From Candidatus Obscuribacterales bacterium (lineage in GTDB: Bacteria; Cyanobacteriota; Vampirovibrionia; Obscuribacterales; Obscuribacteraceae), in contig JAIETZ010000002.1 in NCBI GenBank assembly GCA_019744775.1, positions 62,001-126,000 on the forward strand: a stretch of 64,000 nt of DNA, given 5' to 3'. The position numbers were made by a program, and so were the translations under genes. The first letter of the stretch is position 1. Every line of letters starts with the position of its first letter. Shown one piece after another: positions 6,701 to 58,661 of the stretch. A model generated the notes under the pieces. It was not told where the DNA came from and ran no database searches. It saw only the letters and a program-made list of their open reading frames with translations.

Positions 6701-8249
6701 TCGCAGCCTGGTTAGGGTGCTTGCCTGCCGTGTAAGCTGCTGCCGCCAAACTGTAAGCTTGGGCTAAATTCGCATAAGCCTCACCTGACGTGATACCATC
6801 CACGGTGATAACCGAGTTGTAGTTGCCGGCAGCATTTTCGTAAGCTTGCGCGGCCTTGTCGGGAAACTTGGCTGTTGTAAAAGCGGCTCCGGCATTTTCG
6901 TAAGCTATCCCAGCCTCGTTGAAATGATCGGACAACTGGAAATTTACACCGGCCTTATCATAGGCTGCCGCAGCATCGGCAGGATCATGTGAGGCAGAAA
7001 AAGCTGCCGCTGCAGTATTGAAATCTGCTGCAGCACTTTCAAAGGCCTCCATAGCTTTGTCAACATGCCCACCTGCCATGTAGGCATGCGCTGCATTACT
7101 GTTAGCTTGCGCCACATTTTCCCAAGCCTCACCTGATCTGTCCCCACCCTCAATAACTTCATTGAAGACTTGCGCGGACTTTTCGTAAGCGGCTGCGGCT
7201 TGATTATGATGATTGGCGTTGCTGAAGATTTGCGCGGCATTACTGAAAGCTTGCCCGGCTTCATTGAGATGACCGGCACTGAGGTCTAATTCGGCCTTCA
7301 TCATATCGGAAGTTGCATTAGCTTCATTGGGATGATTTGCTTGACTCAAAGCCGTTGAGGCATGTTGGTATGCAATTGCAGCTTCACTATGATTACCAGC
7401 TTGGCTAAGGATCTGCGCTGCCTGATCGTAAGCTTGTGCCGCTTCATTGTGATGACCTGCCTGATTTAAGGCGTACCCGGCACCATCGTAAGCTTGTGCC
7501 GCCTGATTGGGGTGATGAGAGATCAAAATTTGCGCCGCATTCTCAAAAGCCTGTGCAGCGGCACTAGGATCATTGGCCACAAGAAGTCCTACTGCATTGC
7601 TCATGTCAAAGGCTGCCTGAGCTTCATTGGGATGATTGGCCGCTTCAAAAGCCGTTGCCGCATTGCTGTAGGATGTTGCCGCCTTGCTAAAATTTTCGGC
7701 AGATGTAAATGCTTGCCCGGCGTGAAAATAATCGCGGGCGGCATCGTTATGATCAGTTGCCTGAGAAGCCGCTTTGTCAAAAGCATGTCCAGCGTTGTTG
7801 AATTCTTGCACTTCCGCTGTCTTATCGCCAGCCGTGCCATAATCCGTCGCTGAATTTTGATAATCTTTTGCTGCCGCTTTGTATACATCATGATTGTCGT
7901 AAATTGTGCCGGCATTACTCCAGTCTTGTGCAGCCTGATGATAGTGTCCTGCGCTTTCCGCCGTTTTTGCCGCTTGTTCGTCCTGATGAGCTTGTTCCTG
8001 CCACTCGTGATGGGTAGGCGGCGGAGGAGCAATATGCCCGCCCGTTCCTGTCGGGTCCGGCACCCCTCCATGCGGCGTCAGCGGCGGAGCAATTGGTATC
8101 TTCGTTGTCTCACTGGTTGCGTGCGCTGCCACGCCGCCCAATCTCTTGAGCATTTCTTCAGGAGATTCAGATTCTATGGATGGCAGTTCTTGATAGACAA
8201 CGTTGCTCTTAGGACTAGCCTTGGCCTTCTTGTTGTTTTTCCTAGACAT
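3738..8249 (-). CDS. Very large TPR/SNAP-like repeat protein with Gly-Gly leader, 1503 aa
   Basis: First and longest gene of the leftward array, 83 bases ahead of the next. ATG at 8249 is preceded by GGGAGAA. The N-terminus is nearly identical to its paralogues: basic residues 1-10, then ELPSIESESPEEMLKRLGG with Gly38-Gly39, then TTKIPIAPPLTPHGG. About seventy units of a 20-residue helix repeat follow (pattern AAxAYxxAGxAFxxAGHxNE). Composition is dominated by Ala, Asn, Tyr, Gln and His, which is unusual for a cytoplasmic scaffold. No transmembrane segment is seen. The N-terminal E(-8)M(-7) and GG(-2,-1) spacing partly fits double-glycine leaders of C39-processed peptides; position -4 is Arg where a hydrophobic residue is usual. 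Role as an exported repeat protein is inference. Confidence 0.9.
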   Translation of the reverse strand: MSRKNNKKAKASPKSNVVYQELPSIESESPEEMLKRLGGVAAHATSETTKIPIAPPLTPHGGVPDPTGTGGHIAPPPPTHHEWQEQAHQDEQAAKTAESAGHYHQAAQDWSNAGTIYDNHDVYKAAAKDYQNSATDYGTAGDKTAEVQEFNNAGHAFDKAASQATDHNDAARDYFHAGQAFTSAENFSKAATSYSNAATAFEAANHPNEAQAAFDMSNAVGLLVANDPSAAAQAFENAAQILISHHPNQAAQAYDGAGYALNQAGHHNEAAQAYDQAAQILSQAGNHSEAAIAYQHASTALSQANHPNEANATSDMMKAELDLSAGHLNEAGQAFSNAAQIFSNANHHNQAAAAYEKSAQVFNEVIEGGDRSGEAWENVAQANSNAAHAYMAGGHVDKAMEAFESAAADFNTAAAAFSASHDPADAAAAYDKAGVNFQLSDHFNEAGIAYENAGAAFTTAKFPDKAAQAYENAAGNYNSVITVDGITSGEAYANLAQAYSLAAAAYTAGKHPNQAATANDNAAASYNNAGAAFHDPNKAAGAYENAATAFTAAHHPNEAKTAFENAATNYKDAADADIANHHPNEAAAAYENAATAFSEAGHNNKAGAAYDSAAQAFTTAGHHNKAAAAYESAAGAYSAVVNGGDKSGEAWQNVAQAYESAALAYAAAHHPNEAKAAYENAATNFVATAGAYLAAGDYAKAGAAYNEAGTSFASAGHPNEAKATSYLGQAESDLAAGHPTEAGLAFSSAAQIFSQANHYNQAITAYGEAQAAFTKAGHTHLADAAGQMQYGEQYIAQEGMGPGAQQQFAYAISYYQTAAQRMEGKGDYSQAGQVWMETAYACTLAGQDATASYTNAAQDFTKAATAASTSHPNQAAADYENAGNAYESLGHFNKAAAAFQSAAVIYNNEHNWEKMAEAQNMEGKAYSDAKNYALAANQFSYAAVNFLKANDYENAGKAFESAGNAEKSAGHPNQAGNAFESAGNAFETAGHFNQASAAYGNAVSRYNQAGNSFEAKTAGYMQQAEQDLANNQPADAASNFAKAAYRFEERSHYERAGAAYESAGNAYQSAGKHNEAAQEYNQAANAYVENGNFNHAADAYGKVATAYTEAGHPREAEAAGYMQQAEQSLATNEHAQAALDFAQAASAYQSAGDTNRAASAYQQAGHYYKQVGDLYRAGEAYEGAAHNSTGVEQQGYYKEAADNFFQAGNNYSSSQPIHPNKAAAAYESAGKDYQNAGNHNQAGNAFSYAGKYYLQTCHFNTAAAAFESAGNAYHAASEGPYATQDEKSTAAYYYDSAGSAYDSAGHFNKAAAAFGQAASNYAQNHPNQAKAASDMQQGELARANGDPNKAAKDFMAAATGFQSAGEASFAYNCAGNAYASADHFNEAAAAYEKAAGLAESTADLGQAYENAGNAYARAGHFNKAAAAYGNAVEAYQSSGDQSTEFSNLTKAAGYMQQGAQARVNDDPTQARDAFNKAAQAYETAGDSSQAVAAGKLASECPPA

Positions 8250-24900: not shown

Positions 24901-24977
24901 AAAATGAAACTATAAACTTTCAATTCACTTGACGGATAAAAAATTGATCTCGGCAGCCAGGAAATGCAAATTTAACG

Positions 24978-25013
24978 TGTGTCATATTGACACACATGTA
25001 TCAATATGACACA
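24978..25013. promoter_or_regulatory. higBA operator: 13-bp inverted repeat over the -35 box
   Basis: Arms TGTGTCATATTGA and TCAATATGACACA are exact reverse complements separated by 10 bases. TTGACA (24987-24992) lies across the left arm edge and CACAAT follows 17 bases later, so the palindrome covers the core promoter. This fits autorepression by the HigA antitoxin. Confidence 0.7.
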
Positions 25014-25034
25014 ATAGATACATCAAGAAATACT

Positions 25035-25316
25035 GTGAATATCAACAACCTTAGAGCGATTAATAAGTTCCAGGTGAAGCATCCCGATTGCCGCACCGCC
25101 TTAGATCGCTGGGTTAAGCTAACCCAAATCGCGCAATGGAAACGGCTATTGGATGTTCAAGCCACCTTCCCATCTGCCGAAGACGTGAAGGGCTGGATTG
25201 TTTTCAACATCAAAGGTAATAGCTATCGCCTAATTTCAACAATTCGGTATCCGGAACGCGAAGTTGATATTCACGAAATCATGACGCATGAGCAATACGA
25301 CAGGTGGAAACCATGA
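25035..25316 (+). CDS. higB: HigB-family type II toxin (mRNA interferase)
   Basis: GTG at 25035 is chosen because longer frames would begin inside the operator. The 93 residues match HigB: KFQVKHPDCRTALDRWVKL, W then VFNIKGNSYRLISTIRYP, and the final H-E-x-Y-D-R-W. Family members cleave mRNA on the ribosome and are neutralised by the HTH antitoxin encoded next. Toxin-before-antitoxin order is typical for higBA. The stop overlaps the antitoxin start (ATGA). The pair lies just outside the left end of the ssrA-integrated element, so it is chromosomal as drawn here. Confidence 0.88.
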   Translation: MNINNLRAINKFQVKHPDCRTALDRWVKLTQIAQWKRLLDVQATFPSAEDVKGWIVFNIKGNSYRLISTIRYPEREVDIHEIMTHEQYDRWKP

Positions 25317-25720
25317 GTACAACCTTAGAAGCACCAAAGGAATATTTAAAACTCATAAAACAATTTCCTCTTCTACCCATTAGCAGCGAGTCAAAACTCG
25401 ATGCAGCGATTGAAGTGATGAAAGAACTAACACGCCCAAACAGAAAGCTAACCAATTCAGAAAGCGGTTATCTGAAAATTTTGACCGGCTTGATCAGAGA
25501 ATATGAGTCAAAACATTATGCTCAGGCAACCAATTCACCGCAAGAGATTGTCGAGGCATTGATGGAAGAAGCAGGACTAAATCAGACAGCGTTAGCAGCA
25601 GAGTTGGGCATTGAACGATCAAATCTTTCTGCCTTTCTGTCCCACAATCGACAGCTAAGCAAAACCAATGCTCTAAAAATCGCAGAGCGATTCAAAATTG
25701 ACATTACTGCATTGCTATAG
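25313..25720 (+). CDS. higA: HigA-family antitoxin, XRE HTH
   Basis: Starts at ATG 25313 in an ATGA overlap with the toxin. The C-terminal HTH is clear (EEAGLNQTALAAELGIERSNLSAFLSHNRQLSKTNALKIAERFKI). The first 75 residues are helical and probably bind the toxin. Expected to repress its own promoter at the upstream palindrome. The frame also opens at 25304, three codons earlier, but the overlap start is favoured. Confidence 0.88.
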   Translation: MSTTLEAPKEYLKLIKQFPLLPISSESKLDAAIEVMKELTRPNRKLTNSESGYLKILTGLIREYESKHYAQATNSPQEIVEALMEEAGLNQTALAAELGIERSNLSAFLSHNRQLSKTNALKIAERFKIDITALL

Positions 25721-25737
25721 CATTTATTTGAATTTAA

Positions 25738-25757
25738 AAATGGTGGAGGCGGCGAGA
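25738..25757. repeat. Left attachment site: displaced ssrA 3'-end copy
   Basis: AAATGGTGGAGGCGGCGAGA, identical to 52636-52655, where it forms the 3' end of the tmRNA gene. At this position the flanking sequence does not continue as tmRNA, so this is the fragment left by integration. Confidence 0.85.
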
Positions 25758-32833: not shown

Positions 32834-33187
32834 ATGAGCGCAAAGAAAAATCCTTGTGGTTTTGAGAGGCCAAAGATGCAAACAATTACACCGGACTTAA
32901 TTGCTACCGTAAAAGACAACGTGAAGATGTTGGACGTTATTTCCGAACACGTCACACTCCAGCCAGCTGGCAATCACTTTACGGGACTCTGCCCATTTCG
33001 CACCCACAGTGCTAAAACTCAGCCATCCTTTCAAGTTGACGCCGAGCGAGGCATATTTAAATGCATTGAGTGTGGCGAAGGTGGGGATGTCTTCGCTTTC
33101 GTGATGAAAACAAAGTCCGTTAATTTTCTTGATGCAGTTCGATATTTGATACATCAGCACAATTGTATTACCAAATTTATAACCTAG
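32834..33187 (+). CDS. Stand-alone DnaG-type CHC2 zinc-finger protein
   Basis: 117 residues, or 103 from ATG 32876, which has GAGAGG upstream. The protein is only the primase zinc-binding domain: LDVISEHVTLQPAGNHFTGLCPFRTHSAKTQPSFQVD then FKCIECGEGGDVFAFVMK. The Cys, His, Cys, Cys zinc ligands are present. The TOPRIM and helicase-binding domains of DnaG are absent. Such fragments occur on plasmids and integrative elements. Here it may support the element's own replication or be a remnant. Confidence 0.75.
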   Translation: MSAKKNPCGFERPKMQTITPDLIATVKDNVKMLDVISEHVTLQPAGNHFTGLCPFRTHSAKTQPSFQVDAERGIFKCIECGEGGDVFAFVMKTKSVNFLDAVRYLIHQHNCITKFIT

Positions 33188-36218: not shown

Positions 36219-36761
36219 ATGAAAATTGTACGGTCTACGACTTTAATCTTTGGGTTGATTGCCGCTCTATGGTTGCCGGTCTTTGCTCAAGAAACAACCG
36301 GAAAAGTAGTCGGTGTCAGCGATGGAGATACGTTAACAGTTTTGGCAAATCAACAATTAATACGTATCCGCTTAGCCAAAATTGATTGCCCAGAAAAACA
36401 TCAGCCGTTTGGTCAAAAAGCCAAACAATTTACTTCTTCGCTCTCTTATAACAAAACCGTAACTCTAAAAGAGCATGGAAAGGACAGGTACGGTCGAACA
36501 ATTGGCACTGTGTTGTTACCGGATGGCCGTAGCCTGAACAAAGAACTAGTGAGGACAGGACTCGCTTGGTGGTATTCCAAATACGCACCAAATGACACTG
36601 AACTTGATCAATTGCAGTTGCAAGCCAGAGAAACAAAGAAAGGACTATGGTCAGATTCAAATCCAATCCCACCTTGGGAGTTCAGGAAGCAAGAAAAACA
36701 CGATAAATATTCGACAGCACATCCAACGCTACCAAAACCTGGTCCGGCTAGCCCAGAATGA
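36219..36761 (+). CDS. Secreted thermonuclease (SNase family), island copy
   Basis: 180 residues with signal peptide FGLIAALWLPVFAQ. The SNase fold is clear: GKVVGVSDGDTLTV (Ca ligand Asp), IRIRLAKIDCPE (catalytic Arg and Asp), QPFGQKAKQF, KDRYGRTIGTV (catalytic Arg region), ELVRTGLAWWYSKYAPND, and KKGLWSDSNPIPPWEFRK. Predicted to hydrolyse DNA and RNA outside the cytoplasm. A paralogue of similar design is in the prophage at 55414. Its 3' end overlaps the convergent PDZ gene by 33 bases. Confidence 0.9.
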   Translation: MKIVRSTTLIFGLIAALWLPVFAQETTGKVVGVSDGDTLTVLANQQLIRIRLAKIDCPEKHQPFGQKAKQFTSSLSYNKTVTLKEHGKDRYGRTIGTVLLPDGRSLNKELVRTGLAWWYSKYAPNDTELDQLQLQARETKKGLWSDSNPIPPWEFRKQEKHDKYSTAHPTLPKPGPASPE

Positions 36762-40924: not shown

Positions 40925-41155
40925 ATGGCTGGAATGATTCAAATTCTAACCGACATGCTTGCTGTCTACTTAATCGTCAAGGGCATTGAAGTTTTACAAA
41001 TCGCACTCGCGTCAACCAGGCAGCAACGGAGTGGCATTATTACGATAGGAATACTGACGTTATTTACATGCATCTACGCTGCCTGGTTTTTTGTAAATTG
41101 GCAAGATGAACAGGCAAAATCAATGCAAAACACTATGAAGACAATCCAGGAATAA
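40925..41155 (+). CDS. Small membrane protein, 76 aa
   Basis: Two transmembrane helices: MIQILTDMLAVYLIVKGIEVLQIAL and IITIGILTLFTCIYAAWFFVNW, with a basic loop between and a polar tail. Single-gene unit; function unknown. Confidence 0.55.
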   Translation: MAGMIQILTDMLAVYLIVKGIEVLQIALASTRQQRSGIITIGILTLFTCIYAAWFFVNWQDEQAKSMQNTMKTIQE

Positions 41156-43728: not shown

Positions 43729-44577
43729 ATGTCTGGTAAGTTTGAAGATTTGTTCAACAATCCCAAATTTGCAGCACTAGCAGCCAGACCAGTTTTTCCA
43801 AGACTGTGGAAATACTATTCCAGCGTAGCAGATGTGCTGGCAGGAAGTTCGGCGATAGCATCTATATTCCCTAATACAACAGATATTGGTATCCAACGAG
43901 AATGGGTATATGCTGAATTCTTGAAAAACCATCTACCCTCTGTCTGTAACGTCTTTCTTGGCGGCTACGTGTTCGGTATAGATGGACATGAAAGCAAACA
44001 AATGGATGTTATCATCACAACGAATCTATCTCAACGCTATAACATACCGAACACTGTAAAGTCACTCGCATGTATAGAGGGAACACTTGCTGTTGTGTGC
44101 CTTAAGTCTAACCTCAATACAGCAGAACTTAATGACTCATTAGCAAACATAGCATCAATTCCCACTTTAGCTATACGCAATTCGGAAAAATCAATAGAAT
44201 CAGCGAAGAGCAATCTACACGATAATCTACCCGTAAAGATTATTTACGCTCCGAAAGGCATGGATGGTGAAAACGTATTTGTAGCTGTTGAAGAATTCTA
44301 CAAAGCGAACCATTCGATCCCTCGCAAACACTGGCCAGATTTGATTCATGTTAATAAAAAATATCTCTTTATAAAAACGCCTATTGACTCGGGCGCCCCA
44401 AGCAACTACTTGCCCCTTAAAGACGAAGATGGTGCGCTTGGTCTAATTAACGCAGTATACATGATTCAGGATCGCATTCTAACGTCAACTAAACTTGAAC
44501 TAGCTTATATTGAGGCTTTAGTTCCACTACTTACGCATGGATCACTCAAAACAATCTTTGATGGTAAAAACAAATAG
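43729..44577 (+). CDS. DUF6602-like protein, 282 aa
   Basis: The pattern REWVYAEFLKNHLPSVCNVFLGGYVFGIDGHESKQMDVIITTN...LACIEGTLAVVCLKSNLN matches DUF6602-type proteins (E...L, S.Q.DVVI.D, E.V..V.E.K), a predicted nuclease-like fold; here the final E-x-K has become C-L-K-S, so catalytic competence is doubtful. Single gene with ATG at 43729. Commonly found in mobile or defence regions. Confidence 0.6.
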   Translation: MSGKFEDLFNNPKFAALAARPVFPRLWKYYSSVADVLAGSSAIASIFPNTTDIGIQREWVYAEFLKNHLPSVCNVFLGGYVFGIDGHESKQMDVIITTNLSQRYNIPNTVKSLACIEGTLAVVCLKSNLNTAELNDSLANIASIPTLAIRNSEKSIESAKSNLHDNLPVKIIYAPKGMDGENVFVAVEEFYKANHSIPRKHWPDLIHVNKKYLFIKTPIDSGAPSNYLPLKDEDGALGLINAVYMIQDRILTSTKLELAYIEALVPLLTHGSLKTIFDGKNK

Positions 44578-45490: not shown

Positions 45491-46387
45491 TTACCGAGAG
45501 CTACCACAGATAGCCTCACGAATCTCAAGGACGGAGCACCCACGCCAGCAACCAACAGCACCCGTATCAGAAATCCACAAGTGATTATCGTCAGAGTCAC
45601 GTCGAATCAATTTACAGGCAGGACAAGGACCTCTCCAAAACGGTTTTGAAACATCATGGCAGTAGCCATTATCCTCAGCATATCTAACCCAATCCATTTC
45701 CCCTCTGCGAGAACGAATACTGCCAAATCCTGAGCTAGTCCTGACATTTGTGATCTCCCTTGAATCAAGCTCATCCACAAGACTTAACAGGTCATCCGCA
45801 CGGTTCGGACGTTGAGAAGCGAACCATTCCAGCTGACTCTGTATATCTCTTTCTGGACCTTCAAACCAGCCCCTACAGCCATTTGCCTCAGGTTTACGAT
45901 GAATGCCCAGAGGTCCTCTGACAAGATTGCCTAAATCAATTAACTTATCCTGCTTTGGAAAAATTTCTAGATGATTCTCCGCTATACCGGTGCTTCTCAT
46001 AAAAGCCCTTGCAAACCGCCTGAGTGCTCTAGCCGGTACAGGTTGATCAAAGAAGAGCCAAAAATGTCCATCGCGCCCTGGACGTTTACCCTCTTTAATT
46101 ACACGCCATCCATGAGCACTCATTGCATCGGCAAGCTGATTACTACAGCCATCCTCAACATCCGAATCGCCACATAGCCATCGAGACTCACTCTGTAGGT
46201 CATGTCCGTAAAAGCCAATCGTTACCTGTCCAAGGATGTGTGCACAAATTATTGAAGTAGTTACTGGCTGGTAAATTGGTTTATAACCATGCTTTTCACC
46301 GTCAGTCCACTGTTCTGCATACACGTCGAAACGGTTAGCGAATCTCAAGAGAAAAGTTTGCAGCAGATTATCTGAAATACTGTCCAT
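45491..46387 (-). CDS. Archaeo-eukaryotic-type (AEP) primase
   Basis: 298 residues. The primase core is recognised from FANRFDVYAEQW, ICAHILGQVTIGFYGHDLQSESRWLCGDSDVED (metal-binding Asp74, Asp76), GRDGHFWLFFDQPVPARALRRFARAF (His108), and IFPKQDKLIDLGNLVRGPLGIHRK (His163). This matches the AEP branch found in TOTE-like and plasmid or phage replication proteins. The C-terminal 70 residues form a CxxC zinc-finger-like region (CPACKL...GCWRGC). Predicted to synthesise primers for the element's own replication. It follows the helicase gene across the repeat-rich spacer. Confidence 0.8.
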   Translation of the reverse strand: MDSISDNLLQTFLLRFANRFDVYAEQWTDGEKHGYKPIYQPVTTSIICAHILGQVTIGFYGHDLQSESRWLCGDSDVEDGCSNQLADAMSAHGWRVIKEGKRPGRDGHFWLFFDQPVPARALRRFARAFMRSTGIAENHLEIFPKQDKLIDLGNLVRGPLGIHRKPEANGCRGWFEGPERDIQSQLEWFASQRPNRADDLLSLVDELDSREITNVRTSSGFGSIRSRRGEMDWVRYAEDNGYCHDVSKPFWRGPCPACKLIRRDSDDNHLWISDTGAVGCWRGCSVLEIREAICGSSR

Positions 46388-46665
46388 TTATAGTGACCTC
46401 CATAACAGTCAATTCCACTTAACGCCAAACGTCGCAAACGACAATCGGCTCACAAGTATGAGTTGGACCAACAGCCCTGAGCCAACAAAAACGTGCACTA
46501 GCAACACCTTTTGCCGATTCGGCTCAAAAGTCCATCAATTTGAATCAACAGAGAAACAATTTGAGCCGAATTACAGAGAGAGAAACGATTTACTTTATAT
46601 ATCGTTTTCCTGTTATCTGTTGAGCCGAATCGGCGAAATGCGCATCTGTTGTACCTTTCATCGGC
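46388..46665. other. Candidate replication origin with iteron-like repeats
   Basis: The octamer TGAGCCGA or its complement occurs at 46445, 46519, 46562, 46621 and 46661, with near-copies at 46478 (TGAGCCAA) and 46673. Two copies form a wider inverted pair (GCCGATTCGGCTCAA and its complement) around 100 bases apart, enclosing an AT-rich stretch with AACGAT/ATCGTT arms (about 46584-46605). This layout, between a helicase and a primase gene, fits an iteron-type origin; operators for autoregulation are an alternative. Confidence 0.6.
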
Positions 46666-48288
46666 TCACCCATCGGCCCAACGCATTAAGCCGATGACCT
46701 CATCGGGATGTACCAGTCCCAAATCCTCCAAGAAAGGGACAGCATCATCAACTACTTTGTAGAGATAGGACTTGCCTTCCTTGTTGTCTGAAATGCATAG
46801 GCATCCAGAAGTTGTAAGTTCAGAGAGATATCTCTTTGCCGAAGAGTCTGGAACCTTAAGAAGCTGTTGCGCTTTTGCCCTAGTGAACTCTTGATGTCCG
46901 AACTCTTCCTTGAGCAGTGTGAGGTTTTTTCGTCCCCTTGCACTCAACAGATCCAAAACACGAGGAGCATTTGCCGATACTAAATCATAAGCTACTTTGT
47001 AGTCATTAATGTCGGCAACGATATATGATTGGACATTGTCTTCAATTACTTCTCGACAATGCTGGTGCAAAAGAGCGTTTGCCTGTGTGTAGTTCAGAAG
47101 CAAAGGGAATAGTCGTCGTATTGTGACCTCCTGTTTCTTAGGAACAATATGCTTGGCATAAGGAATCTGGACTGGATATGACCTCAATCCTCTATGAAAA
47201 GTTCGCCACGCCTCAACTTCTACTCGCTTGGCATAGTCTAAAGATGCATCAAATGCAATTGAAGCCATTTTAGCCTGCAAATCAAGCACCTTCGCGGTGA
47301 GTTGCGCATCGTCCTTGGTCATACACCAGCTCAACCGATTTGCAAACTCGTCGTTGAACTGATTTTGTTCAAGAGTCGTCGTCAAGGTAAAAGTCGCCGG
47401 ACCTTCAGTAGTATGAACCTGTGCACCAAGTTCTCCCTTCGCACCTTTTTCGACAACAGTTCTTGTAATGCTACCCTCACTTATTAATTGCCTAAATGCT
47501 TGTTGCCAATCATCGTCCTCTCCCTTCTTCAAGATCTTGAGTTCACCGCCAATCACATACTTATGCCTGAGCGAACCAAGATAGAAAAGTGCTCGATTAC
47601 TATAACTGGTACTGTTAATCACGATTTCCGGCGGAAGCAAGTTCGAGGCTTTCACGATTGCATCACTTTTTCCAGAAGCACTTGGACCAGAGAAAACAAA
47701 TCCCATACTTCGCGAAAGAAGCCGCGATCCGTGGCTAATTGAAATCGTGCCAGCCAAATTCATGTCAGCTATGTAGCCGAAGTGTCTTTTTAACGTCTCT
47801 TGGAGTTCATGAGCGATGTTTGGACACGTCTTGATTTCATCAGTTCGCTTGCATATAGCTTTTTGAAATTCCTCTTCCTCTTCCTTGCGCTTGCGCTCTT
47901 CCTCAGGATCCCTATTTTCCTTATTCAGCTGCTGAGCTGATTCCTTTGCGTTCCTTTCCGTTTGCTTCTTGAGAGAGTCGTATATGACTCTATACGTACT
48001 TTTGAGCGTCCTTTTGCCAACATTGTATTTCTTACGAAACTTCTCTAGCTCGACGTCAACTTTAAGCTCGTCAGGCTCGCTTTGTGCAAGCTTCAGGAGA
48101 CTTAGGCGGATGACCTCTTCCTCAGTTTGCAAAGGAATCGTTGGACCAGCAGCGCTTTTGCCTTGCAATTTATTGTGCACGGATGATTTGATCTCATTGC
48201 TTGAGGTAGAATGGGTATCAACATCGTCGAACTGTGCAGCCCCTTGACCCAGGGGCTGTTCCATTGTTGCAGTCATAGTTACCCCCAA
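46666..48288 (-). CDS. P-loop replication ATPase/helicase-like protein, 540 aa
   Basis: Residues 50-150 are a charged helical N-terminus with an Asp/Glu/Lys coiled coil (EEERKRKEEEEEF). Walker A is GPSASGKS (201-208), with a following strand VIGGELKILKKGEDDDWQQAFRQLIS (Walker B-like). The C-terminal 90 residues are a winged-helix segment (EFTRAKAQQLLKVPDSSAKRYLSELTTSGCL). The AAA-like core plus wHTH suits a mobile-element replication protein. It would act with the downstream AEP primase at the repeats between them. Confidence 0.7.
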   Translation of the reverse strand: MGVTMTATMEQPLGQGAAQFDDVDTHSTSSNEIKSSVHNKLQGKSAAGPTIPLQTEEEVIRLSLLKLAQSEPDELKVDVELEKFRKKYNVGKRTLKSTYRVIYDSLKKQTERNAKESAQQLNKENRDPEEERKRKEEEEEFQKAICKRTDEIKTCPNIAHELQETLKRHFGYIADMNLAGTISISHGSRLLSRSMGFVFSGPSASGKSDAIVKASNLLPPEIVINSTSYSNRALFYLGSLRHKYVIGGELKILKKGEDDDWQQAFRQLISEGSITRTVVEKGAKGELGAQVHTTEGPATFTLTTTLEQNQFNDEFANRLSWCMTKDDAQLTAKVLDLQAKMASIAFDASLDYAKRVEVEAWRTFHRGLRSYPVQIPYAKHIVPKKQEVTIRRLFPLLLNYTQANALLHQHCREVIEDNVQSYIVADINDYKVAYDLVSANAPRVLDLLSARGRKNLTLLKEEFGHQEFTRAKAQQLLKVPDSSAKRYLSELTTSGCLCISDNKEGKSYLYKVVDDAVPFLEDLGLVHPDEVIGLMRWADG

Positions 48289-48698
48289 GTTATCCCAGGA
48301 AGCCAGCCAGTTTCATCGATGTGATCGAGTAAATCTATGGTCTCATCAAACTCCTCGCAGGTCGTCACTAACTTAGTCGACTTAACCTCAAGCTCATTTT
48401 GGGTCAAGAAAGAACGAAACGCATCTATATCGACCGGCAAACCGAATTGCAGCAGACATTTCCATACAATTGTTAGCTGTGGTTCTTGCTCAGCACCTTC
48501 AGGCGCGTGTGACCAGCAATAAAGTTTAGTTCCTGACTTGTGTTGAATTTGCCTAAAAACTTCATCGATTGAATAGTAGGCTCTTTCAACATCCCTCGGA
48601 CATTTGCAAACGGTTGTAATCTCGACTAAAAGGTGTTCGTCACCTTTTTCAGTGATTAACTCCTGGAGGATGTGTTCACTATTGAACTGATTAATCAA
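48279..48698 (-). CDS. Hypothetical protein, 139 aa
   Basis: ATG at 48698. Acidic helical protein with no clear domain; FNSEHILQELITEKGDEHLLVEITTVCKCPRDVERAYYSI at the start. Its stop overlaps the helicase start by 10 bases and its start follows the excisionase stop closely, so all three are coupled. Confidence 0.6.
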   Translation of the reverse strand: MINQFNSEHILQELITEKGDEHLLVEITTVCKCPRDVERAYYSIDEVFRQIQHKSGTKLYCWSHAPEGAEQEPQLTIVWKCLLQFGLPVDIDAFRSFLTQNELEVKSTKLVTTCEEFDETIDLLDHIDETGWLPGITWG

Positions 48699-48699
48699 T

Positions 48700-48957
48700 T
48701 TAATTACCTCCTCTTTTTACTGACACATTTTTTGCCTTTGCCCTTGGATCAAAAATGGAAGCAGCGTTGCGATTAAGGTATTCGTCCAGCTGTGCCCTAG
48801 TTATAACGACCCGGCGTCCGATACGAACGTGCCCCAGACGTCCAGTGTGAACCTCGTGCCACCATTTCGTTTGGCTTATCCCATACCTTTGGGAAAGCTC
48901 GGGAATTGAAAAACCTTCCTGTATAACTTCGTTCGATTGTGACTTTCTTGTTGCCAT
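48700..48957 (-). CDS. Excisionase/MerR-like HTH protein, 85 aa
   Basis: Contains FSIPELSQRYGISQTKWWHEVHTGRLGHVRIGRRVVITRAQLDEYLNR, the HTH_17/excisionase pattern. First gene of the leftward replication unit, 100 bases from the divergent regulator-integrase unit; in this position it likely serves as excisionase and switch protein. Confidence 0.75.
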   Translation of the reverse strand: MATRKSQSNEVIQEGFSIPELSQRYGISQTKWWHEVHTGRLGHVRIGRRVVITRAQLDEYLNRNAASIFDPRAKAKNVSVKRGGN

Positions 48958-49057: not shown

Positions 49058-49999
49058 ATGGCAGGACAGTACAGCCTTTTGAAGCGTCAATATAAGCACT
49101 TTCATCTTAAAGGGGTCATCCTAGAGACGACTTCCGCCAATCCGTCCTTCCTTAAGATTGATTTTGCGTATCAAAAGCATCGAGCCTTTATGCTGGAAAC
49201 TTTTGTAAACGCAACGGACGCCACGAAACTACTCAGGTACCTAAGACGTTTTGGCTTACCGGACAGAAAAAGGATTCAGGAGAATCAGGTACTTTCTAAA
49301 GACCTGGTCACAGAAGCTACAGAAATACTGGTGACTGCAAACGGGTTGTTGAGTATAGCTGCCAGACTGCGATGGCACTTAACTTTGATGGAAGCAGTTC
49401 GGCAAGCCGATCATGATTATCTTAAGCTGTGTGTACAAGCCAACGATTCTGAGTTTCCAGAAGAGCATCCACTTTATAAACCCCATAGAAAATCTAAACT
49501 TCTCTCAATGAGTCCATCGCCTACTGCCAGTGCATACACAGATTGGGAAGATGGACTACTTTCTAGTGATGAAAGTGAAAAAGAATTTGAACGTCATATT
49601 GAACCAAAGGAATGGCAAGGGCAATTGCGACAACGAAACAAAAGACTCGAGTTCACCAGAAGATACATTGCTCACCATATTAATCATCATCTCAGCAATG
49701 TACATCCGACAGTGGATTTCAAAGGAAAAACATTCTTCGATCTGAAGCAGCCGATTGAAGCAATGTACTTGGAATTATTCAATCAGTTTACGGGCGCCAC
49801 CGGGATAATTATTTGCAAAAACCCAAATTGTCCAAAACCCTTATTTGCGGCAAAGCCAAAACAAAAAAGTAAACGCAAGCCAAGAAGCGATAGAAGATTT
49901 TGCGACAGGGCTGGCTGTCAAAAGTGGTATCACGATAACATCGGACGAGTTAGATCGGCCAAACAAACAAAAGGTCCAAAATTGGAGAGACTAAAATGA
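49058..49999 (+). CDS. CGNR-like zinc-finger protein, 313 aa
   Basis: The C-terminal zinc motif is CKNPNCPKPLFAAKPKQ...RRFCDRAGCQKWYHDNI, C-x4-C twice, as in CGNR-type fingers. The first 230 residues are helical and unassigned. It overlaps the integrase start by four bases (ATGA) and shares its promoter. Probably a transcription or recombination accessory factor. Confidence 0.6.
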   Translation: MAGQYSLLKRQYKHFHLKGVILETTSANPSFLKIDFAYQKHRAFMLETFVNATDATKLLRYLRRFGLPDRKRIQENQVLSKDLVTEATEILVTANGLLSIAARLRWHLTLMEAVRQADHDYLKLCVQANDSEFPEEHPLYKPHRKSKLLSMSPSPTASAYTDWEDGLLSSDESEKEFERHIEPKEWQGQLRQRNKRLEFTRRYIAHHINHHLSNVHPTVDFKGKTFFDLKQPIEAMYLELFNQFTGATGIIICKNPNCPKPLFAAKPKQKSKRKPRSDRRFCDRAGCQKWYHDNIGRVRSAKQTKGPKLERLK

Positions 50000-51135
50000 C
50001 CAAAGAAAATAAATCAAATGAAAAAGTGAATAATGGCCTTTACAAGCGTGGGAACAACTGGTGCATTCGCATAATGATAAACGGTATATTGCACCGCAAA
50101 TCAATCGGACCGGAGAAAGCAAAAGCAAAGGCAGTACTTGCAGAACTCAAAAGTCAACGAGCACTATTCCGCGTTACTGGTGATATGTCAGGCTTGGAGG
50201 AATTCTTCAAAATTAGAGAGCGTAAGACTTTTGCCGAAGTCGCAGAGGCATATATTGCTGAAAGACCACACCTAAAGCCAAGCACCCTAAGGGGCTATCG
50301 CGAGATTCTGAAAAACTACCTTCTACCTACATTTGGGAAACTCTATGTCGATCAAATTACCGAAGATCAAATTGCTCGCTTTCAAGCAGACATATCACAA
50401 TCTGTTTCAGCTACTCGCACCAATAACATCCTTGGTCCGTTGCGCTATATCCTAAAAACTTGCGTCCGACGAAAACTAATCGGCGATAATCCTGCCTTAT
50501 ATGTTAGTCAACTCAGAGAGGAAGATCCAAATATTGATCCGTTAACAGCCGATGAGCTAGATAAGGTAATAACGTGTATGAAACCCTATCAGCAACCATT
50601 GTTTCTCTGCCTCGCATGGACTGGAGCAAGACCAGATGAACTATTCGCCTTAAGATGGTCTGATATCGATTTCCAGCGCAACGAAATTCACATTAACAAA
50701 GGGCGAGTTAGAGGACTAGAAAACACAACAAAAACAAAGTCTAGCAAACGAGTCATATACATGCTGTCAGTAGTGAGGCAGATCCTGTCCAGTCTTCACG
50801 CCAGCAGTACCAAACACTTAAATGGCTATGTTTTCCTCAACAAGCATGGACAACCATATGACAAACATGTAGATAGAGAATGGCGGATTGCACTTAGCAA
50901 GGCCGGCGTAAGACATCGCCCGGCTTATCAATTACGCCATACATTTGCGAGCCAATGCTTACAGAATGGTTTGCAACCAACATGGGTATCGAAGATGCTG
51001 GGGCACTCCAGTTTGCAAACCACATTCAAGCATTATGCACGATTTATTGATGACGCGTCTAATATCAATGAGAAACGCCTAGAGGAGTTTCTGTCTAATA
51101 GAAATAGCTCGAATACACGTGCGAGTTCCTCATAA
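49996..51135 (+). CDS. Tyrosine integrase of the ssrA island
   Basis: 379 residues. An N-terminal arm-binding-like domain (YKRGNNWCIRIMINGILHRKSIG) is followed by a core-binding SAM-like domain (TFAEVAEAYIAERPHLKPSTLRGYREIL). The catalytic domain has Arg in TGARPDELFAL, the box AYQLRHTFASQ (Tyr in place of the usual His, as in many integrases), LGHSSLQTTFKHYARFI and the nucleophile Tyr. Located about 1.5 kb from the ssrA junction. It is expected to use the 20-bp ssrA core as attachment sequence. Confidence 0.88.
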   Translation: MTKENKSNEKVNNGLYKRGNNWCIRIMINGILHRKSIGPEKAKAKAVLAELKSQRALFRVTGDMSGLEEFFKIRERKTFAEVAEAYIAERPHLKPSTLRGYREILKNYLLPTFGKLYVDQITEDQIARFQADISQSVSATRTNNILGPLRYILKTCVRRKLIGDNPALYVSQLREEDPNIDPLTADELDKVITCMKPYQQPLFLCLAWTGARPDELFALRWSDIDFQRNEIHINKGRVRGLENTTKTKSSKRVIYMLSVVRQILSSLHASSTKHLNGYVFLNKHGQPYDKHVDREWRIALSKAGVRHRPAYQLRHTFASQCLQNGLQPTWVSKMLGHSSLQTTFKHYARFIDDASNINEKRLEEFLSNRNSSNTRASSS

Positions 51136-52635: not shown

Positions 52636-52655
52636 AAATGGTGGAGGCGGCGAGA
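52636..52655. repeat. Right attachment site inside the ssrA 3' end
   Basis: Same 20 bases as 25738-25757. On the minus strand it encodes the last 17 nucleotides of tmRNA plus the first bases after it, including the encoded CCA. Confidence 0.85.
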
Positions 52656-53023
52656 ATCGCACTCGCGTCCAAAGACATCTGGAATTAAGCCACTACAAGT
52701 TTAGTTCGATATTCCACCAGAACCGCTGGCGTAGGCTCGAACGGCCTCCCGGGTTTGCAATTATGTCTTGGCTCAGACTATCAATCGCTAATTTTGTCTG
52801 AGAGCAATCACCGTGGTTAGCCTGATAGCAGCGGGTGATCAAGCCCCTACCAAGCTTCGCTACTTATCTAGTTCGTAGATTAAGCGGCGCGCAAAGCGCG
52901 CGGTGCGAAAGCAACAACGTTGTTGTTGGCATTTGTTTTGTTTTGCTGGGTTTTTGACGAGGTTCCTAGCAACCCCGACCTGCAACTTAAGACCTAACAT
53001 CCCTGTCGAATCTAAACGCCCCC
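52639..53023 (-). ncRNA. ssrA: tmRNA
   Basis: The 5' end GGGGGCG (53023-53017) pairs with CGCCTCC near the 3' end to close the seven-base-pair acceptor stem (one G-U), and CCA is encoded. The 5' part continues TTTAGATTCGACAGGGATG, close to the tmRNA consensus. The tag reading frame (52930-52880, minus) gives ANNNVVAFAPRALRAA followed by TAA, starting with GCC and preceded by AAAACAAAT, as in related bacteria. The T-stem is GCGAG/CTCGC with loop TGCGATT, carrying G at the position normally U. Length about 385. The 3' end is the island's integration target and remains intact. Confidence 0.95.
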
Positions 53024-53032
53024 ATGTCTGCA

Positions 53033-53084
53033 TTGAATGACGCAACATGGTCGTCGTATGTAAATACGAGGAAAGGTCATTCAA
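53033..53084. other. Hairpin-forming inverted repeats upstream of tmRNA
   Basis: TTGAATGAC (53033) pairs with GTCATTCAA (53076), and inside them TCGTAT (53054) pairs with ATACGA. Lies just 5' of tmRNA, so it may shape the precursor or be a regulatory site. Confidence 0.4.
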
Positions 53085-53104
53085 TTATCAGTGTGCAAAG
53101 GGGG

Positions 53105-53226
53105 GAAGCCCCGGACTAATCATTATAACAGGAGCAGGTCGGCGTCAGTCTAGCGCCGTAGCTACCGCCCTCCAAGTGCTTGCGGGTTGGGGCAAGGGCG
53201 GTCCATTTAGCTCCATCCGGGGCTTC
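53105..53226. ncRNA. Highly structured RNA candidate
   Basis: Closing stem GAAGCCCCGGA (53105-53115) with TCCGGGGCTTC (53216-53226), 11 perfect pairs. Nested pairs: GGAGC (53131) with GCTCC (53210), hairpin CGGCG/CGCCG (53140-53158), and hairpin CCGCCCT/AGGGCGG (53165-53201) with CCAA/TTGG inside. No reading frame accounts for this. The rod-like layout recalls 6S RNA, but I see no diagnostic sequence and the strand is undetermined. Confidence 0.45.
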
Positions 53227-53271
53227 TTAGTGTTGTAGACCATAAGGTTTTGGAAATGTTCCCAGCTTCAC

Positions 53272-53290
53272 GGGCGCATGCAATGCGCCC
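53272..53290. repeat. Small GC-rich palindrome (REP-like)
   Basis: GGGCGCAT, loop GCA, ATGCGCCC. Near the stop of prmA; resembles dispersed palindromes of the GTAGGGGCGCAT type seen in many genomes. No T-run, so not a good terminator. Confidence 0.4.
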
Positions 53291-53311
53291 CTACAGTAGG
53301 ACCCGGTGCGG

Positions 53312-55413: not shown

Positions 55414-56058
55414 ATGCTCAAGTACTTTCTAGCCCCCATTCTATTTATATGTTTGCTGATTTCAGCAGCCTACTCAGATCCGCTTAAGGTAACCACGAAT
55501 TCAGATGCATTCTATGCACGAATCGTGAATATACACGATGGCGACACAATAACCGTTAAGACAACTAGTGGTGAGCAAATCACCGTTAGATTGGCAGGTA
55601 TTGATGCACCGGAGCTGGATCAGCCATATGGAATGGAAGCTAAGCTATGGCTAGATAACTGGGCGAAAGGTCCCAATCGAGAGATCCTTTCTGTATCAGG
55701 AAGAAGAGCATTAGAAGAGTCTCGCGGGCAATACTTTATACCGACGGGAAGGGATCGCTATGGCAGAACCATTGCTTATATGTATGCAGGGGCTGATGTA
55801 GTGGAAGGTACTCCAGCTAATTACTTCAAGCAATCTAGTATCAATCAAAACTTGGTTGAACTTGGTGCTGCTTGGTGGTTTAGGCGATACGAACCAAGCA
55901 ATCCAGAAATGGAAGCTGCAGAAGTTGATGCGCGTAAGCACAAGCGCGGCTTATGGAATGTAAACAAGAAACAACCTCAACCGATACCACCATGGGAATG
56001 GCGCAAGATGAAGAAAGATCATGCGTTGATGCCTGATGAGCTGAACGAGAAGATATAG
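55414..56058 (+). CDS. Secreted thermonuclease (SNase family), prophage copy
   Basis: 214 residues; signal peptide FLAPILFICLLISAAYS. SNase motifs: ARIVNIHDGDTITVKT, VRLAGIDAPELDQPYGMEAK, RDRYGRTIAYM, NLVELGAAWWFRRYEP, KRGLWNVNKK. Similar domain structure to the island copy at 36219, with a longer insert (about 30 residues). Placed between integrase and HNH; a nuclease carried by a phage as lysogenic cargo is plausible. Confidence 0.88.
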   Translation: MLKYFLAPILFICLLISAAYSDPLKVTTNSDAFYARIVNIHDGDTITVKTTSGEQITVRLAGIDAPELDQPYGMEAKLWLDNWAKGPNREILSVSGRRALEESRGQYFIPTGRDRYGRTIAYMYAGADVVEGTPANYFKQSSINQNLVELGAAWWFRRYEPSNPEMEAAEVDARKHKRGLWNVNKKQPQPIPPWEWRKMKKDHALMPDELNEKI

Positions 56059-56632: not shown

Positions 56633-57106
56633 ATGGGTAGGAGGGGACCAGCTCCGAAGCCGACCGCGTTGAAAGAAGCGGAAGGCAACCCAGGTAAGCG
56701 CCCATTGAATAAGCGTGAACCAAAACCAGATCTTGCGCTGCCTAAGTGTCCGGATTTTCTGAGCGATTTAGCTAAGAAAGAATGGGATCGGGTAGTGGGT
56801 CAACTGTTTCGGAACAGACTGATGACCGATCTCGATGCCATGAATCTTGCTGGTATGTGCCAGGCATTGAAGCGCGCTGTTGCTGCCGACAAGATTTTAG
56901 AGAAGTCCGGATATACCATGACCACGATGCAGGGCAATGAAATTCAGCGCCCTGAAGTTTCGATTTCTCGTAATTCATGGGCTGAGTATCGGAAGTTTGC
57001 CGTTGAGTTCGGCATGAGTCCCGCTTCGCGCTCACGTATTCAGATCGATAACAATTCAGGTGCCGATGAAGAAGACGCAGCAGACGAAGAAGAATTCTTC
57101 AGCTAA
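56633..57106 (+). CDS. Phage terminase small subunit, P27 family
   Basis: ATG at 56633 begins MGRRGPAPKPTALKEAEGNPGKRPLNKREPKP, the classical P27 start; the open frame reaches back to 56582 (GTG). Contains LAKKEWDRVVGQLFRNRLMTDLDAMNL. Binds the packaging site and hands DNA to the large subunit. It overlaps the large-subunit gene by 47 bases. Confidence 0.92.
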   Translation: MGRRGPAPKPTALKEAEGNPGKRPLNKREPKPDLALPKCPDFLSDLAKKEWDRVVGQLFRNRLMTDLDAMNLAGMCQALKRAVAADKILEKSGYTMTTMQGNEIQRPEVSISRNSWAEYRKFAVEFGMSPASRSRIQIDNNSGADEEDAADEEEFFS

Positions 57107-58661
57107 CGAAGAATTCTGGTTTGATCAGGAAGCGGCTGATCGAGTCATCAAATTCTTCTGCAGGTTCCTGAAGCACACTGATGACGAATGGGCAGGGAAG
57201 CCATTCAAGCCATTACAGTGGCAAGAAGATTTGCTCAGGGAATTGTTCGGCTGGAAAAGAGCAGATGGTACAAGAAGATATCGAACCCTATATCTCGAGA
57301 TTCCCAGAAAGAACGGGAAGTCTACGTTAGCCGCCGCAATCGCTGTGTACCTACTATTTTGTGATGCTCCTGTTCGCGGTCAAATCATCAGCGCCGCCGC
57401 CGACACCGACCAGGCAAAGATCATTTTTGATACAGCGAAGGCAATGATTGAGGCAAGTCCCAAACTTAAGAAGCGGTGCTGGATCTTTAAGAAATACATC
57501 AAGGTCAAGAAGACAGGCGCTATATATAAAGTAGTGTCCGCTGATGCTAGAACCAAGCATGGTACTAAGCCGCACGGAATTCTATTTGATGAATTGCACG
57601 TCCAAAAGACCAGAAGCCTTTACGACGCATTACGCACTGGTCGCGGCACACTTAAGCAGCCATTAGAAATCTTGCTAACCACTGCCGGTGAGAATCCCGA
57701 TAGTCTTTGCGGCAATATCCATGACTATGCAATTAACGTAAGAGATGGAGTATTTCCAGATTCTACCTTCTTGCCTAAGATTTTTGCGGCAGAGAAAACA
57801 GACGACTGGAAAGATCCGAAAGTATGGCTGAAAGCAAATCCTAACCTTGGGTCAGCAATATCTTTTGAGAGCTTGCGTGATGAGTGTGACATGGCGCAAC
57901 GAATGCCGAGTTACGAGAATACATTTAAGCAACTCTATCTGAACATATGGACTGAATCCATGGACGTGTTCATTCCAGAAGCCTTCTGGATTCGAGCCGG
58001 ACGCGATTTAGTCTTGGAGGATTTTGAAGGGCGTAAATGTTGGGCAGCTTTGGACTTATCGAAGCGGATCGACCCTACAGCTTTAGCGCTCTGTTTTCCA
58101 GATGATGACTTCAACAAGTTTTTCAATTTCAATAAGTTCTGGATACCGGCCGATCTGTTGGAGTATCACGAGAAAACCGATCACGTCCCATATAAGTTGT
58201 GGGCAAAAGATCCAAAAGCCAACTTGATACTTACGCCGGGTGATATCGTTGACTACACCTATATCGAAGAAGATCTTCTCAAACTGATGGAACGATTCCA
58301 CATGATGGAATTGGCATTTGACCCGTGGCGAAGTGAGCAATTCAGGACCAGGCTTATTAATAATGAAGGCATTCCGGCAGTGGAGTTCCGACAAGGCACC
58401 CGATCTATGTCTGGTCCGATGATGGATTATGAGGCAATGGTTATCTCACGACAATTTCAGCATGATAGCAATCCGATGATGAAATGGATGATGCGTAACC
58501 TGCTTGCCTATAGAGATTCAAGCGGCAACATCAAGCCAGACAAGAGCAAGAAGAATAGGAGAATTGATGGACCAGTAGCTAGCATCATGGCGCTGGCGAG
58601 AGCTTTGGAACATAAGGACGACGATAGTATTTACAACACGAGAGGATTAATAGTTCTATGA
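57060..58661 (+). CDS. Phage terminase large subunit
   Basis: 533 residues, GTG 57060 or ATG 57066. ATPase: LEIPRKNGKSTLAAAIAVYL (Walker A-like) and HGILFDELH (Walker B with catalytic Glu), LLTTAGENPD coupling motif. Nuclease half with CWAALDLSKRIDPTAL and a further acidic site near LAFDPWRSEQFRTRL. Family of the HK97-type Terminase_1. Drives DNA into procapsids. Confidence 0.93.
   Translation: MPMKKTQQTKKNSSANEEFWFDQEAADRVIKFFCRFLKHTDDEWAGKPFKPLQWQEDLLRELFGWKRADGTRRYRTLYLEIPRKNGKSTLAAAIAVYLLFCDAPVRGQIISAAADTDQAKIIFDTAKAMIEASPKLKKRCWIFKKYIKVKKTGAIYKVVSADARTKHGTKPHGILFDELHVQKTRSLYDALRTGRGTLKQPLEILLTTAGENPDSLCGNIHDYAINVRDGVFPDSTFLPKIFAAEKTDDWKDPKVWLKANPNLGSAISFESLRDECDMAQRMPSYENTFKQLYLNIWTESMDVFIPEAFWIRAGRDLVLEDFEGRKCWAALDLSKRIDPTALALCFPDDDFNKFFNFNKFWIPADLLEYHEKTDHVPYKLWAKDPKANLILTPGDIVDYTYIEEDLLKLMERFHMMELAFDPWRSEQFRTRLINNEGIPAVEFRQGTRSMSGPMMDYEAMVISRQFQHDSNPMMKWMMRNLLAYRDSSGNIKPDKSKKNRRIDGPVASIMALARALEHKDDDSIYNTRGLIVL

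Follow-up and report, generated by a model that had tools for sequence, protein, structure and literature searches.

Introduction

Primase-polymerases of the CAPP/TOTE type, a branch of the archaeo-eukaryotic primase (AEP) superfamily, are known from CRISPR and conflict systems. The classical iteron plasmid has an initiator of the Rep_3/RepA type and iterons of some 20 bp that are arranged in tandem. In staphylococcal pathogenicity islands (SaPIs) and in the staphylococcal cassette chromosome mec (SCCmec), the sites of the origin follow closely on the helicase gene, and the helicase binds them with its C-terminal domain (PMC7581432). AEPs with helicase partners are already established on cryptic integrated elements (PMC5862659). 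In the element ICETh2 of Thermus thermophilus HB27, the helicase Hel apparently takes part in replication and the primase-polymerase Ppol does not; Ppol limited the uptake of foreign DNA (PMC7693054). The locus presented here belongs to a stretch of 64,000 nucleotides ("the window", to which all positions refer) of contig JAIETZ010000002.1 from Candidatus Obscuribacterales bacterium. The window contains a 26.9-kb integrative element at the gene of the transfer-messenger RNA (tmRNA, ssrA). Residing in this element, the span 45491-48957 covers a tightly packed operon of xis, orf139 and an AAA+ ATPase gene, followed by an AEP gene (Table 1). On balance, it is probable that this span is the replication module of the element, with an origin that would be located between the last two genes.

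The putative primase and its ATPase partner

The putative primase scores 89 bits against the Pfam family AEP-TOTE, for which the cut-off is 27. It aligns with the CAPP structures (PDB codes 7nqd and 7nqf) at E ~1e-15, with the DxD, H and EIFPKQ motifs in corresponding positions. Among its relatives Asp74, Asp76 and His108 are invariant, together with Cys255, Cys258 and Cys280 of the C-terminal tail. Judged by these alignments, the protein belongs to the AEP superfamily, is of TOTE/CAPP type and keeps the catalytic motifs. No match to a PriCT domain was obtained in the Pfam search. Two narrower assignments were rejected. As a TOTE conflict protein, it reaches 84 bits in 298 residues versus 259-307 bits for full-scoring AEP-TOTE proteins of the same bacterial family, in frames of 565-964 residues. 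As a CRISPR-associated Prim-Pol equivalog, it reaches 108 bits versus the NCBIfam cut-off of 200, and no CRISPR gene was recognised among the neighbours. When genome contigs were scanned with a narrower AEP alignment, three loci were found, two of them in Candidatus Obscuribacterales bacterium and Cyanobacteriota bacterium and the third a 57-residue match in Nocardia. A scan of viral contigs with an alignment of five AEPs gave no match.

The ATPase has 540 residues if read from a TTG codon, but the likelier start is the ATG at 48276, just past the stop codon of orf139. Its Walker A motif is GPSASGKS. Gly206, Lys207, Glu249, Thr303 and Arg318 are invariant in the alignment, in which Walker A, the catalytic glutamate, the sensor and the arginine finger are conserved. 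The homologues that were found in plasmid records, in viral contigs and in relatives at class level are C-terminal parts of CHC2/toprim primases. In small circular records, the homologue is fused to a CHC2/toprim primase and adjoins XerC-type recombinases. From this homology the protein is assigned to the AAA+ domain of DnaG-type (CHC2/toprim) primase-helicases. It matched no Pfam family, the tblastn search against phages and the scan of viral contigs with the window ATPase alone gave no match, and the profile search of the PDB returned P-loop and winged-helix fragments only. In the AlphaFold model, residues 450-512 have the H-E-H-H-E-E order of a winged helix, mostly with a predicted local distance difference test score (pLDDT) of 70-89.

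The same gene neighbourhood is found in a family-level relative, G036. Its 9.4-kb element at the tRNA-His gene is bounded by a 20-21-bp repeat and has the order int / xis-small open reading frame-ATPase-spacer-AEP, as in the window, with two HTH_17-type genes. In addition, an IMG/VR contig encodes at its positions 4576-7287 a single protein of 903 residues, in which an AEP-TOTE domain (3e-19), a window-type ATPase (4e-19) and a PriCT-1-like segment are joined. In a second viral contig, the ATPase is joined in one protein to a domain with weak similarity to primases and adjoins a DNA polymerase A. The adjacency in two elements, the fusion protein and the DnaG-type homology support the proposal that the ATPase and the AEP are a primase-helicase pair.

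The intergenic spacer

The octamer TGAGCCGA occurs in five exact copies within 46445-46668, at 46445(-), 46519(-), 46562(+), 46621(+) and 46661(-), and only once more in the rest of the window (position 401). Copies with one mismatch are found at 46478(+), 46673(-) and 46687(+), so the whole cluster spans 46445-46694. The fifth exact copy overlaps the stop codon of the ATPase gene, and the near copies at 46673 and 46687 are located within that gene. The spacings of 33, 41, 43, 59, 40, 12 and 14 bp do not form a tandem array; the sites are dispersed and inverted.

The commonest 8-mer of the 313-bp segment 46388-46700 has five non-overlapping copies, while more than three were seen in none of 5000 dinucleotide shuffles. 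By this measure no other 313-bp stretch of the window is as repetitive, and none of the others reaches five copies. In the 4.1-Mb genome, the longer sequence TTGAGCCGAATCGGC has two sites with zero mismatches, both in the spacer, mutually inverted and flanking the AT-rich core. An inverted octamer pair (TCGGCTCA-N20-50-TGAGCCGA) was likewise found in the spacer only by a genome-wide pattern search; the direct pair at 20-50 bp spacing has one occurrence elsewhere, on contig C11. The centre of 85 bp between the composite sites has a GC content of 32%, compared with 43% for the island, and the lowest 50-bp value in the spacer region, 28%, is within the bottom 0.7% of the window.

A preliminary description of this region had reported five exact octamers in both orientations with near copies, an AT-rich centre, and their position between a P-loop ATPase and an AEP primase. 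These points agree with the data given above. It had named an octamer common throughout the genome as grounds for refutation; the clustered or extended forms are not common in this way. The term iteron-like has to be replaced, since the sites resemble the dispersed and inverted ones of SaPI/SCCmec-type origins and not tandem plasmid iterons.

The conservation of the repeat cluster was examined in five relatives, including G036, G030 and G034. A significant cluster of ATGACGCA in G030 is inside the reading frame predicted for the AEP and is found again at a distance of 3 kb, and the TAGTCCA repeats of G034 are almost wholly inside the end of the upstream gene; neither was counted as support. 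The inverted-repeat pattern of the spacer had no match in viral contigs.

The candidate origin and other explanations

The spacer is most likely to be read as an origin of the SaPI/SCCmec kind that follows closely on the gene of the initiator helicase. Its position directly after that gene, the short sites and the AT-rich centre all point to such a function. We infer the following course for excision, binding, melting, priming and replication. The element would be excised by Int and Xis to form a circle. The ATPase, made in one operon with Xis, would attach by its C-terminal winged helix to the TGAGCCGA sites 3' of the ATPase gene, open the AT-rich centre and then work as a helicase. The AEP encoded next to it would lay primers to be extended by the host polymerase, and this would give plasmid-like copies, by which the element is buffered against loss or helped to spread.

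Several observations weigh against an origin and a joint role of the two proteins in replication. The spacer of G036, the closest relative of the module, has no significant repeats. The primase of ICETh2 is dispensable for replication of that element (PMC7693054). The octamer sites also form a strong nested palindrome, for which an RNA or operator role is possible. Finally, the core of the ATPase model is poor, with a mean pLDDT of 48.8, and the sequence is therefore the sole basis for the helicase class. The preliminary description had spoken of a replication module and of plasmid-like replication of an island. This reading is broadly right and is supported in part. The empty site of a sister genome bears out the island and sets its limits (see below). 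A module of ATPase and AEP as predicted helicase and primase stands, by virtue of adjacency, fusion and DnaG-type homology; the origin would be a further step, read from the arrangement of the spacer. What the sequence shows are the limits of the element, its gene order, the protein families, the fusion of the pair and the non-random nature of the repeats.

As an alternative to an origin, the spacer could be a control region that sets the expression of the AEP, either by operator sites or by a structured segment of the mRNA. The nested, imperfect palindrome is consistent with this. The fold in the mRNA sense has an energy of -123 kcal/mol (z -7.2), the lowest z of 210 island windows tested on that strand, and that of the other strand is -90 kcal/mol (z -5.0). 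The AEP gene, which begins 278 bp past the ATPase gene, has its own ribosome site (Shine-Dalgarno sequence GGAGGT before the ATG) just beyond the spacer. However, when the extended sites were held fixed, the excess disappeared on the plus strand (z -0.17), so the fold there is due to the inverted sites entirely, and became small on the mRNA strand, which still beats most shuffles (z -2.05, 10/300). Therefore the fold is mostly the arrangement of the sites itself, and there is a modest case for RNA structure beyond it. In addition, no promoter-like or terminator-like match was found, no Rfam family was matched except tmRNA, and no octamer copies were found at the divergent promoter of int and xis. 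A regulatory spacer in place of an origin appears unlikely, though it deserves to be taken seriously.

A division of labour has to be considered as well, in which the ATPase helps replication, the AEP mainly defends against incoming DNA, as does Ppol of ICETh2, and the repeats are perhaps an AEP-independent origin. In ICETh2, the nearest studied parallel, deletion of ppol did not reduce replication and raised transformation (PMC7693054). The AEP belongs to the CAPP/TOTE group and has PADLOC matches to PrimPol; the island also encodes a NucC-like/PD-DExK protein and a trypsin-like protein with a PADLOC match. Against this, the AEP-ATPase fusion in a viral contig and the co-occurrence in a second element point to joint action, and neither CRISPR nor a complete defence system was recognised beside the AEP. 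We judge this explanation improbable. If the AEP were defensive, the locus would test the generality of the ICETh2 result.

Much less probable is a phage satellite resembling the phage-inducible chromosomal islands (PICIs), for which a helper phage, perhaps the neighbouring 43-kb prophage, would provide induction and packaging. The integrase, the AlpA-like HTH_17 regulator and the layout of primase, helicase and candidate origin resemble PICIs, and the prophage is missing from the sister genome G052; but searches of the island with the families used turned up no gene for a terminase, a capsid, capsid remodelling or packaging. That the octamer cluster is a functionless effect of chance or sequence bias can practically be dismissed, in spite of the lack of significant repeats in the equivalent spacer of the nearest relative, given the 0 of 5000 shuffles and a 15-mer unique to the spacer in the genome.

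Should the spacer prove to be an origin, the locus would provide a compact and testable set of initiator, sites and primase, in which an AEP is paired with a DnaG-type helicase. The primase type would then be swappable while the helicase is kept, and a mobile replicon would be available for a lineage of non-photosynthetic Cyanobacteriota that is uncultured. We tentatively suggest, as a possibility that falls short of probable, that a CAPP/TOTE-type AEP was recruited to a mobile replicon as the primase of a DnaG-type AAA+ initiator helicase, with a compact palindromic intergenic origin that may also be a structured RNA. For this Obscuribacterales-related lineage, it would be the first integrative element proposed to replicate from an origin of its own.

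The integrative element and its surroundings

The tmRNA gene occupies 52639-53023, and 20 bp of its 3' end are repeated at 25738. A contig of G052, of the same genus, matches the window contiguously in two parts, 24936-25757 (97.4%) and 52636-53295 (97.7%). The two matches share exactly 20 bp and define an empty site, the core of which consists of these 20 bp at the 3' end of ssrA. Because this empty site joins both flanks with the 20-bp overlap, the element comprises 25738-52655. With its integrase, HTH_17 xis, att repeats and empty site, it is a precisely bounded integrative mobile element of the tyrosine-recombinase type. No relaxase or conjugation genes were found in the Pfam search of the island proteins, which covered all but small open reading frames and parts of the cargo. 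Within the island, 15 nt at 40999-41013 are identical to the tmRNA bases just past the att core; this match was set aside as an inner att site, the core being missing there.

In this bacterial family ssrA is a recurrent integration site (six loci). Partial copies of the tmRNA 3' end occur 3-8 kb from the tmRNA gene, several of them with related integrases and other cargo. The integrase of the window is 53% identical to that of the G036 element and 55-63% identical to those of other ssrA elements in genomes of the family. No Pfam match was obtained for the protein of 313 residues encoded upstream of int.

Among the other genes of the island are a stand-alone CHC2 (DnaG-type) zinc finger of 117 residues (32834-33187), a secreted SNase-like nuclease (36219-36761, Pfam SNase 7.8e-29) and a DUF6602 protein (43729-44577). 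The last has PADLOC PD-DExK and weak NucC nuclease similarity and may be defence cargo. The prophage beside prmA, of about 43 kb, extends from 54250 to ~97640 in window numbering and encodes an integrase (54376), an HNH protein, a terminase (57060-58661) and a portal-like protein. It too is missing from G052, where its ends overlap by 52 bp. It contains a second secreted SNase-like nuclease (55414-56058), similar by eye to that of the island. A short repeat 5' of prmA (~53266-53306) has many near copies in this genome and its relatives, in the manner of repetitive extragenic palindromic sequences.

Table 1. Positions of the features of the element in the window
Feature	Position	Strand	Basis
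Whole integrative element, 26,918 bp	25738-52655		Empty site in G052
attL, 20-bp core AAATGGTGGAGGCGGCGAGA	25738-25757	+	Direct repeat of tmRNA 3' end
AEP primase(-polymerase), predicted, TOTE/CAPP type, with C-terminal Cys-rich zinc-ribbon-like tail	45491-46387	-	Pfam AEP-TOTE 4e-25
Spacer, candidate replication origin, inverted octamer sites around AT-rich core	46388-46665		278 bp, ATPase to AEP
Composite site, TTGAGCCGAATCGGC inverted	46510-46530	-	Genome-wide match
AT-rich centre, candidate unwinding element, one octamer within (46562-46569)	46532-46616		32% GC
Composite site, TTGAGCCGAATCGGC	46617-46637	+	Genome-wide match
AAA+ ATPase, predicted initiator helicase, C-terminal winged helix	46666-48288	-	Homology to AAA+ part of CHC2/toprim primases
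orf139, in operon with xis and ATPase	48279-48698	-	Stop codon abuts ATPase ATG
Excisionase-like HTH_17 protein (xis)	48700-48957	-	Pfam HTH_17 5.4e-9; PHROG excisionase families
313-residue protein, C-terminal CxxxxC...CxxxxC zinc-finger-like motif	49058-49999	+	Sequence
Tyrosine integrase (int)	49996-51135	+	Phage_integrase 5.5e-23
attR, 20-bp core within tmRNA 3' end; tmRNA remains intact	52636-52655	+	Repeat and empty site

Comparison with known systems

The adjacency of initiator-helicase and primase genes that characterizes SaPI/SCC-like modules is present here. The SCCmec pattern-2 module CCPol-MP-Cch2 also has a primase-helicase pair with repeats just 3' of the helicase gene. The C-terminal domain of Cch2 binds the repeats, for which a counterpart is proposed in the window ATPase. 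However, the primase of that module is derived from an A-family polymerase, the helicase is of D5/Primase_Cterm type and the recombinases are serine recombinases (PMC7581432). The rep/pri/ori region of SaPIs, which belong to the PICIs, is similar in its AEP-type primase and initiator helicase and, if the spacer is an origin, in its short-repeat origin directly 3' of rep (PMC7581432). SaPIs are phage-inducible satellites, whereas neither packaging genes nor helper dependence were seen for the window element.

The class iii elements of Kazlauskas et al. (2018) carry an AEP and no phage or conjugation genes, one of them resides in a tmRNA gene, and helicases adjoin the AEP or are fused to it. Their AEPs are of the PrimPol-PV1 supergroup, whereas that of the window matches AEP-TOTE/CAPP (PMC5862659). 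CAPP (NCBIfam PrimPol_Msp) provides the closest solved AEP domain. It differs in its CRISPR context, while the window protein has the zinc-ribbon-like tail and the ATPase partner. The locus does not resemble a classical iteron plasmid, as no Rep-family match was found among the proteins searched and the sites are not in tandem.

By description, ICETh2 appears to be the nearest parallel for the element as a whole, and it keeps the division of labour between helicase and primase under consideration. It is a small integrative element with a tyrosine integrase and an excisionase, inserted at the 3' end of an RNA gene. Its Ppol and Hel are encoded side by side, Hel is akin to the helicase part of DnaG, and the pair is fused in relatives. 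It differs in the target, tRNA-Val instead of ssrA, and in the length, 11.3 kb compared with 26.9 kb. A repeat cluster was not found described in the sections used, and the likeness of Ppol and Hel to the window proteins is by description only (PMC7693054). A limited check of the literature brought up no description of a CAPP/TOTE-type AEP that is paired with an AAA+ ATPase of DnaG type and a palindromic spacer.

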